Assembly (NCBI RefSeq): GCF_008831285.2
Contig: NC_045148.1
Location: forward strand, 20,329,002 to 20,393,001
Length of the DNA stretch: 64,000 bases
Source: Nymphaea colorata
Lineage: Eukaryota; Streptophyta; Magnoliopsida; Nymphaeales; Nymphaeaceae
Direction: 5' to 3'
The notes beneath the pieces are model-generated. The model was not told the DNA's origin, searched no databases, and was given only the letters and a program-made list of their open reading frames with translations. Position numbers and translations under genes: made by a program. This document shows positions 6,040 to 9,000 of this stretch, one piece after another. Positions within the stretch are counted from its first letter, which is position 1. Each line of letters starts with the position of its first letter.

Positions 6040-9000
6040 ATGTGCAGAACATGCTGCAGCTTCATTTTCTTAATCGCCCTTCTCCTTCCTCCAGTGCTCG
6101 TCAAGACAGCTGAGAATCCCGATTGGATTTGCATCGGCGGCGTAAACCCGGCGAACAGCACCTTCAGTCACAACCTGCAACAAGCACTGGCCTCTCTTGT
6201 GGCCAATGTGTCCCTCACCGGCTACTACAATGTTACCGTAGGAAAGAGCCCCAACCAAGTCATTGCCGCCGTCCAGTGTCGTGGTGATATTGACGGCGAA
6301 GTTTGCGACGTCTGCGTCTCTGTTGCTGCCTCACAGGTCACTCTGCGGTGCCCCAGGAACAGAGTGGTTGCCGTTGTCCTCCAGAGCTGCTTCATGTACG
6401 TCACCGATCCCAACTTTACGATTCCTCGATCGTTTATGAATGTCTCCTTCCAGACAGCTGAAGCCATCCCCGACCCTGAAAGATTCAAGCCCATGCTCAC
6501 CTCCTTCTTCAACAATCTCATCATTTCCGTCACCACCAACCCTTCAGGCCGCTTGTATTGGGGCGACAGTTTCAGGTATACTCAGAACTTGACTGTCTAT
6601 GCCATGGCGCAGTGCCTTCAGAACCTAACCCCAAAGAGCTGCAGACCTTGTTTAGACGAAGCCTTGGCTATAATGCTCAAAGATGCTACAGATACAACAA
6701 GCAGTACAGTTTTCCATAATATCGAATGCGGTGTAGGTTACGACATCTTTCCTTTTTTCACTCCCCCACCTCACAAGATTGCTCCAAGCAGCGCCATTTC
6801 CATCTCAACTAGCTGCTTCCCACCACCATTGATCGACAAGGTTAGCAGCCCGTTTCATAGAAACCTCAAGGCCTTGCTCAGCCCGTTTCATAGAAACCTC
6901 AAGGCCTTGCTCAATAATTATCTGATAGTGTACGCACCTTTCCCTGGCTTCTACGACGAAACCGTCGGCTTGGGCTCCAGCCAAGTCTACGGCCAAGCCT
7001 TGTGCCGAGGCGACATCACTAAGGATGTTTGCTGGCATTGCATAGCCCAGGCTTCTACCAAAATCCAAGAGTTATGCCCCAACAGCAGAAGGGCAATCAT
7101 ATGGCTCGACCTCTGCCATTTGCGCTACTCCGACGAGAACTTTGCCGGCACAGTAGATGTCCAGGACAGGGCATGCCAACCATCAGCGGAGAACACATCG
7201 AATCCGACGAGCTTCGATGAGAATTTGAGAATCCTCTTCTCTAACTTGACCTCGAAGGCCGTGCAGAGCTCTTCCACTCACTTCTTTGCTACAGGAAAAA
7301 CCCTGCTTCCTGACTCACAAACGATCTACGCTTTAGTGCAGTGCGTGAGAGACATATCTGCAGACCAATGTGTGTGGTGCTTGCGGAATGCCAGCGCTGA
7401 TATTGAGGGGTGCTTTAATGGAAGGCAAGGCGGTCGAATCCTCAGGGGAAGCTGTAGCCTGAGTTTTGGGATGCAGTCTTTCTTTGCAGGCGATCCAGCG
7501 CTGGTTTCATCTGTGCAGCCGAATCATGGTGAGTGCGACTCTTACTCTGCCCATCACATGCTCAAGGTCCAAGGAGATCTTTGATCCTAATTGTCAGGCG
7601 AAAGACTGTCCGCCATTTTAAGCATCAGTTGTGTTAAAAATGGTCTGAAAAAGGAACCCGATAAAGCAGGAAAGTGCTTTCAAGGTTGCCACGAAGTCAT
7701 TCTAAAGCATTTTAGTCCTCATTTTTTCACTCTGCCCGAACTAGATTTGATTCCCTCATCACAAGAAGCGGTGAGGTCTCTACTTGCTTCAATGGCCCAC
7801 ATCAGCCCATAGAAGCTATTTTTAGATGGTTCTATGCCTTGTGAGGACCTTTTCTTTCTAAATACAAAGTTTTTCAGATTACTCTTGCACGCTGTACTTC
7901 TGCCTGCTCCCAATTGGACTGTCTAATCTTTTTGTAAACAAACGATATCATACACATAACCATTGTACTTTGAAACAGGGTACCGCCGCCGATGGATGCT
8001 TGTTCTCATTGGCTTCATTGGTGGGCTACTGCTAACAGCAGCCTTCGCTTTTTGCTTAGTTGAGAAACTAAAACAACATCTAGGTAAAGTTGACGTGCCT
8101 TGAAAGACTCTACAGGCCTAATGTTCACCATAAAAGTTCATCATTTTGATTCCCACTTCTTCATGTCCTTTTAGAGAAGCTAAAACAGAAAGAGACAACT
8201 CTCACTGATACTGAGAGTGCAGAAGAGAATGAGACAACCTTTGATTTACCACAAATCAGCCTGAGGACAATACAAGATGCTACAGATAAATTTTCAGAAT
8301 CAAAAAAGCTTGGGGAAGGTGGATATGGACCTGTCTACAAGGTAATTGGAGTAATTAGTTCCTGGTCGATTCATCCTTTTGTTATTCTTTCTTATATTTA
8401 AATTTTTACAAAATTACTGAAATGGTGAACCATGGGACCATGTCGCTTAATTGTAACAAAGTGTCGATTTCTGAACTTCTTGACAAGGGTCACCAACTTT
8501 CTGACAATAGTCAGAAAGCGACTTAACTTTCCGACCATGCGTTGGCAGAGTTTACTGTCTCAATCGAATTGAAATTTATTTCTCTTATTTGATTTACTCG
8601 GAGAAGTTCTTACACATCAGTAGGTAACAAGCATTAACCCTGAGCGAGCTCCATGTTGTCAAACAGCTGTAAGAGTGCGACCCGGATCATATCTGAAAAA
8701 TAAAGTAGCGAAAAAATATTCAAAATGAAGGAAAAATAACTGATCCCAAGTTGGAGTTTCCTACATGCATTAATGAGAAGCAGAAGCATTGGAGATTATT
8801 TACTTTTAATAAAATGACAAATAAATAATTGATGATGCTTTCAAACTAGGGGAAACTTCCCGATGGACAGGAAGTAGCTGTGAAGCGGCTGTCCGGACGA
8901 TCTAGGCAGGGTTTAAAGCAGTTCAGGAATGAAGTTGAGTCGATGGCGAAACTTCAACACACAAACCTGGTCAGGCTCATTGGTTGCTGCTCAGAAAAAG

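Follow-up and report, generated by a model that had tools for sequence, protein, structure and literature searches.

Four-module CRKs in a tandem cluster of Nymphaea colorata: probable union of two diverged DUF26 pairs in a single exon

The window, a stretch of 64,000 nucleotides of Nymphaea colorata that was analysed as a whole, carries a tandem array of CRK genes. A similarity comparison with the first exon of copy 3 located copies of the four-module type at positions 1, 6043, 12756, 18593, 28247 and 35922, as well as a short remnant (25271) and, at ~44.8 kb, a CRK of the ordinary two-module kind (copies 1 to 8; Table 1). Six exons (copies 2, 3, 4, 6, 7 and 8, with copies 1 and 5 left out) were analysed with Pfam, which returned four separate PF01657 (DUF26) stretches for each of copies 2, 3, 6 and 7 (E = 1.2e-61, 5.9e-65, 3e-59 and 1.5e-62, respectively), four for the open part of copy 4 and two for copy 8. 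The region singled out by the sequence-only reading, 6040-7528, coincides exactly with exon 1 of copy 2, from the ATG at 6040 to the GT donor after 7528. Its proposal of four modules in one exon applies to copies 2, 3, 6 and 7 and to the open part of copy 4, but not to copy 5, of which only a 277-bp piece is left; the two modules that it assigned to copy 8 correspond to the two Pfam stretches in 44828-45880.

Table 1. Features of the CRK array (positions in the window)
Feature	Position	Strand	Basis
Copy 2 exon 1: signal-peptide-like start and four DUF26 modules	6040..7528	+	Pfam, 4 stretches; ATG, GT donor
Copy 2 module 1, A type	6121..6438	+	module bounds, cysteine table
Copy 2 module 2, B type, lacking C1 and C5	6448..6780	+	module bounds, cysteine table
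Copy 2 module 3, A type, with exact 33-bp tandem repeat 6847-6912	6799..7164	+	module bounds, cysteine table
Copy 2 module 4, B type, six cysteines	7165..7488	+	module bounds, cysteine table
Copy 2 exon 2, hydrophobic, transmembrane-like	7979..8083	+	GT-AG, in frame; judged by eye
Copy 2 exons 3-7, kinase with VAVK, HRDLK, DFG, APE; whole model 887 aa	8175..11041	+	
Copy 3 exon 1, four modules; model 876 aa, end of exon 7 at 17422	12753..14208	+	Pfam, GT-AG model
Copy 6 exon 1, four modules; model 876 aa, end of exon 7 at 33545	28244..29699	+	Pfam, GT-AG model
Copy 7 exon 1, four Pfam stretches, module 4 lacking 12 residues; model 862 aa, end of exon 7 at 41288	35919..37338	+	
Copy 1, exon 1 cut by the window edge, from within module 1 through module 4; no last cysteine in module 3	1..1263	+	
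Copy 4 exon 1, frameshifts and stop in module 1; modules 2-4 open	18590..20036	+	
Copy 5, 277-bp remnant covering modules 3-4 in part; identity to copy 3 98.2%	25271..25547	+	
Copy 8 ectodomain, usual two modules, comparison unit; end approximate	44828..45640	+	Pfam, 2 stretches in 44828-45880

For copies 2, 3, 6 and 7, seven-exon open models with GT-AG borders in frame could be drawn from the DNA alone, coding for 887, 876, 876 and 862 amino acids, respectively; in the model of copy 7, the acceptor at 38186 was picked by phase. The start of all four models is hydrophobic and signal-peptide-like, and exon 2 is hydrophobic, both as judged by eye. The motifs VAVK, HRDLK, DFG and APE, which we take to be those of a kinase, occur in each model. 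Membership in the CRK family is indicated by the presence of DUF26 modules (PF01657) along with the hydrophobic exon 2 and the kinase motifs in the same open gene model, and each of the four models combines four DUF26 modules with one kinase, as is characteristic of a qdCRK. As predicted from the DNA, the ectodomain of these copies is encoded by a single stop-free exon with a GT donor at its end. In the kinase part of copy 7 (38186-38358 and 39445-40334), exon 3 has a repeated ANYDLPQ stretch, and the activation segment reads GTSGYVAPE versus GTYGYMAPE in copies 2, 3 and 6. Elsewhere in the window, 59706-59860 holds a piece of a CRK-like kinase that has decayed, being split over two frames and interrupted by a stop, and minus-strand open frames at 53999-57277 resemble pieces of a Copia-type retrotransposon polyprotein.

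Several copies are damaged. Copy 1 is cut off at its start by the window edge, lacks six residues of module 3 including the last cysteine, and has AT after kinase piece K3, where the other copies read a GT donor. Module 1 of copy 4, when aligned with that of copy 6, has two gaps, of 8 bases and 1 base, on either side of a stop, and in copy 5 the kinase pieces are also broken. Among the open copies, module 3 of copy 2 is extended by 11 residues through an exact 33-bp tandem repeat (6847 and 6880), which is probably recent, and module 4 of copy 7 is 12 residues short. Four undamaged modules are thus present only in copies 3 and 6 among copies 1 to 7. The sequence-only reading had correctly assigned four modules to copies 2, 3, 6 and 7, but its list of copies was too long: copies 1, 4 and 5 are damaged or mere remnants, and indels affect module 3 of copy 2 and module 4 of copy 7.

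The architecture is real but already known, and the suggestion that it might be an under-described receptor class has to be withdrawn: the four-DUF26, one-exon layout of CRKs has been in print since 2018 (PMC6237359), and such genes have been named qdCRK (PMC8941122). According to PMC6237359, 11 of 91 soybean CRKs carry four DUF26 modules, encoded in each case by one exon; their proteins measure 903-948 aa, and they are attributed to duplication of two-module genes. The same layout in one exon is given for 7 of 53 CRKs in Medicago and for 2 of 54 in Phaseolus, and four-module CRKs are further mentioned for cotton and fruit trees. Other papers mention CRK9 and CRK26 of Phaseolus as four-DUF26 CRKs (PMC6356535), a "quadruple domain" class with few eudicot CRKs exceeding two modules (PMC6368629), 15 qdCRK and 4 qdCRKD genes (PMC8941122), and CRKs carrying "one to four" DUF26 (PMC11536441). 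In layout, the legume four-DUF26 CRKs (PMC6237359, PMC6356535), called qdCRK in PMC8941122, resemble the present ones in having four DUF26 in one exon (PMC6237359), a transmembrane exon, a multi-exon kinase, and tandem as well as segmental copies; by length, the soybean proteins (903-948 aa) belong to the same size class but exceed those described here (862-887 aa). On a different constraint of outer and inner pair, a search aimed at selection on CRK ectodomains listed PMC6237359 as the one paper that contains "four DUF26", and it does not contain "positive selection"; subscription papers lay mostly outside the scope of this literature survey, and absence from print is not claimed.

Other relatives share parts of the architecture. 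Copy 8, an ordinary two-DUF26 CRK, likewise shows the A-B order and a kinase in the same exon pieces, but has only two modules, which are 29.7% identical to the inner pair (modules M3-M4) and 22.9% to the outer pair (M1-M2) of the four-module copies. The ectodomains of PDLP5 and PDLP8 (PDB 6gre, 6grf) are also A-B tandems of DUF26 with CRGD and QC signatures of the same kind, yet they comprise two modules and no kinase, and module B of PDLP5 has the cysteines C1 and C5 that M2 lacks. Ginkbilobin-2 (Gnk2; PDB 4xre, 3a2e) belongs to the DUF26 family and matches module 3 of copy 3 (phmmer), but is a single secreted module. Modules 3-4 of copy 3 gave no relative when scanned against viral sequences, and a scan of bacterial and archaeal genomes based on an alignment yielded 54 pattern matches, but no confirmed relative.

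The pattern C-x8-C-x2-C is kept in all 23 aligned modules of copies 1, 2, 3, 4, 6 and 7 (5 M1, 6 M2, 6 M3 and 6 M4). The two B-type modules differ in their remaining cysteines: M2 lacks C1 and C5 in 6/6 copies, as does module B of copy 8, whereas M4 has both in 6/6 copies. In the excerpted text of PMC13058244, Arabidopsis Group V CRKs are said to be devoid of one disulphide, while basal CRKs retain twelve cysteines; we infer that M2 and M4 resemble different known types. According to the same excerpt, the mannose-binding residues of Gnk2 are N11, R93 and E104. With places counted from the cysteines, each module of the window matches at one of the three residues at most, R occurring in five of six M4 and E in two of six M2. 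M2, having no C1, offers no position for N11, and neither does the truncated M1 of copy 1; M3 of copy 1, having no C6, offers none for R93 and E104. On this residue table, a mannose lectin chemistry of the Gnk2 type was rejected, and simple mannose binding is not predicted for the modules of the window.

The relationships of individual modules were inferred from a tree of 29 modules (109 of 138 columns, those filled to less than 50% being dropped; supports are ultrafast bootstrap/SH-aLRT). It includes the 76-residue part of module 1 of copy 1 and omits M1 of copy 4; copy 5 was left out of all trees, and the fragmentary module B of PDLP8 and 3a2e (the same protein as 4xre) were omitted as well. 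It has to be considered in reading the trees that the only outgroups are copy 8, PDLP5, part of PDLP8 and Gnk2, which stand on long branches, so that joins among them are possible. Each module type clusters across the copies (M1 100/99, M2 99/98, M3 95/94, M4 95/96), which dates the four-module exon to before the tandem copies spread. One side of the tree unites M1, M3, module A of copy 8 and the A modules of the PDLPs (93/85); M2, M4 and module B of copy 8 come together (89/83), with PDLP5 B outside that group. A clade of M1 and M2 is rejected (p-AU 0.023), one of M3 and M4 is not (p-AU 0.098). From these groupings and tests the module order reads A-B-A-B, and Pfam, the module tree and the gene models agree with the earlier proposal of this order within a single exon.

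Had an A-B ectodomain simply been doubled, as the sequence-only reading proposed, M1 should pair with M3 and M2 with M4. In the module tree, M3 groups with module A of copy 8 (93/89), but forcing M1 and M3 together costs 4.99 log units and is not rejected (p-AU 0.081); M2 and M4 form one side of an unsupported branch (61/0). Module B of copy 8 fits M4 and M2 equally well (p-AU 0.452 and 0.443). Overall, the module tree does no more than lean against a simple doubling.

A second tree was built from whole pairs (13 rows, 216 columns, with columns filled to less than 60% dropped and the outer pair of copy 4 omitted) under a mixture model and LG+G4. It joins the inner pair and copy 8 on one branch, supported by 96/94 and 97/94 under the two models, respectively. 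A clade of outer and inner pair is borderline (p-AU 0.061 with the mixture model, 0.0465 with LG+G4); a clade of outer pair and copy 8 has values of 0.058 and 0.046. Mean identities are 27.5% between outer and inner pair, 28.7% between outer pair and PDLP5, 22.9% between outer pair and copy 8, 29.7% between inner pair and copy 8, and 24.1% between inner pair and PDLP5. In blastp comparisons with copy 3, the outer pair matched the inner pair at E = 2.7e-28 and PDLP5 at 4.2e-24, and the inner pair matched copy 8 at 3.0e-31. All three matches mark clear homologues. We read the two halves as units that diverged long ago, not as the products of a fresh doubling. Both an ancient duplication and a fusion of two CRK exons fit the data, and the small set of long-branched outgroups does not separate them.

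A fusion of two different CRK first exons within the tandem cluster, by deletion or unequal exchange between neighbours, would have taken the outer pair from another CRK lineage, and we give this origin close to an even chance. It is in line with the branch uniting inner pair and copy 8 and with the borderline placement of the outer pair next to copy 8, with the different cysteine make-up of M2 and M4, and with the arrangement of the copies in one tandem array. It would also accommodate the linker between M2 and M3, FFTPPPHKI, a hinge-like, proline-rich separation of the pairs that, by eye, resembles the proline-rich stretch after module B of copy 8; such a likeness would follow if one complete ectodomain, hinge included, had been placed ahead of another. 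On the other hand, no donor lineage for the outer pair was identified among the outgroups compared, which are too few for this purpose, and module B of copy 8 joins M4 as readily as M2. Moreover, the cysteine loss common to M2 and module B of copy 8 conflicts with a pair tree that joins copy 8 to the inner pair. Since the tree does not follow the cysteine pattern of the B modules cleanly, this loss possibly occurred more than once.

That a single gene doubled its two-module ectodomain internally, and that the pairs then diverged for long and unequally, is the view of the sequence-only reading and of the soybean authors, and we rate its prospects as somewhat short of even. It agrees with the A-B-A-B order in one exon and with the alignment of both pairs of copy 3, and neither the clade of M1 and M3 nor, under the mixture model, that of both pairs is rejected. 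This view has to contend with the closer relation of the inner pair to copy 8 in the blastp comparison and in the pair tree, with the p-AU of the both-pair clade under LG+G4, and with the presence in M4 of the two cysteines that M2 and module B of copy 8 lack. The shared motifs were discarded as proof of an internal doubling: CRGD...C..C and QC...C..CL are also carried by modules A and B of PDLP5, and therefore mark the A and B types and not a private duplication. Of the proposal that the whole two-module ectodomain had been duplicated, the A-B-A-B order thus stands; the motifs are general, the outer pair is no closer in identity to the inner pair than to PDLP5, and the inner pair groups with copy 8.

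The two pairs also differ in constraint. Omega values were calculated according to Nei-Gojobori for the ten pairs of copies 1, 2, 3, 6 and 7 with 500 codon bootstraps; copy 4 was excluded, as it was from the statistics on M1, the signal peptide and the outer pair in an earlier Nei-Gojobori comparison. Mean omega is below 1 for all modules (M1 0.376, M2 0.626, M3 0.230, M4 0.248). For the outer pair it amounts to 0.494 (0.37-0.64) versus 0.239 (0.18-0.31) for the inner pair, with dS of 0.473 and 0.576, respectively; the order was reversed in 0/500 bootstraps, which overstate independence because the copy pairs share branches. Without copy 1, the values are 0.396 and 0.260, with 17/500 reversed. 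The closest intact pair, copies 3 and 7, shows the opposite direction (outer 0.20, inner 0.45; outer not above inner in 463/500). The outer pair hence changes faster overall, though not between copies 3 and 7. That it is a relaxed, non-functional passenger, as its higher omega (0.63 in module 2) might suggest, is improbable in view of mean omegas below 1 in both outer modules, the pattern C-x8-C-x2-C in 11/11 of them, and the outer omega of 0.20 between copies 3 and 7.

Values above 1 for a single pair were obtained only for the very close copies 4 and 6 (M2 1.20, M3 1.15). In this comparison, dS is 0.013 in the nearly identical inner pair versus 0.113 in M2. Together, the dS contrast and the high omegas hint at gene conversion between copies 4 and 6 and at decay of copy 4.

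We consider it quite probable that these genes are tandem-cluster qdCRKs in which one exon joins two already diverged two-module units; as a likely mechanism, the outer pair would act as a recognition head and the inner one as a pairing body. An intact copy would consist of a signal peptide, an outer A-B pair, a proline-rich linker, an inner A-B pair, a single transmembrane helix and a kinase of the RD type. The exon with four modules was present before the tandem copies spread, and most likely arose when two diverged CRK two-module units were joined, be it by ancient duplication or by fusion of the first exons of neighbouring CRKs. According to this proposal, the outer pair, faster overall, would serve as the recognition head; the conserved inner pair would form a membrane-proximal body through which receptors pair, and pairing would bring two active kinases together. 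To our knowledge, the ligands of CRKs are largely unknown. The architecture, the age of the exon relative to the array and the overall difference in rate are observations on which this proposal builds; ligand binding, pairing and signalling are inferred from work on CRKs and PDLPs. AlphaFold predicts pairing via an extended DUF26-B beta-sheet for many CRK ectodomains of Arabidopsis, though less for those of Groups I and III (PMC13058244, in excerpt), and the crystal dimers of PDLP5 and PDLP8 are formed via different surfaces (PMC6368629, in excerpt).

One may go further and regard the four-module CRKs as a chimera of two different CRK ectodomain exons, a two-storey receptor in which a fast-evolving outer head for recognition, marked by a cysteine pattern of its own, sits on a conserved inner body for pairing; this we hold to be doubtful. 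If the fusion reading is true, the published idea of a plain doubling of the ectodomain would be corrected. A natural four-module receptor whose pairs appear to be under different constraint may offer a simple means of telling the recognising DUF26 pair from the one through which receptors pair.
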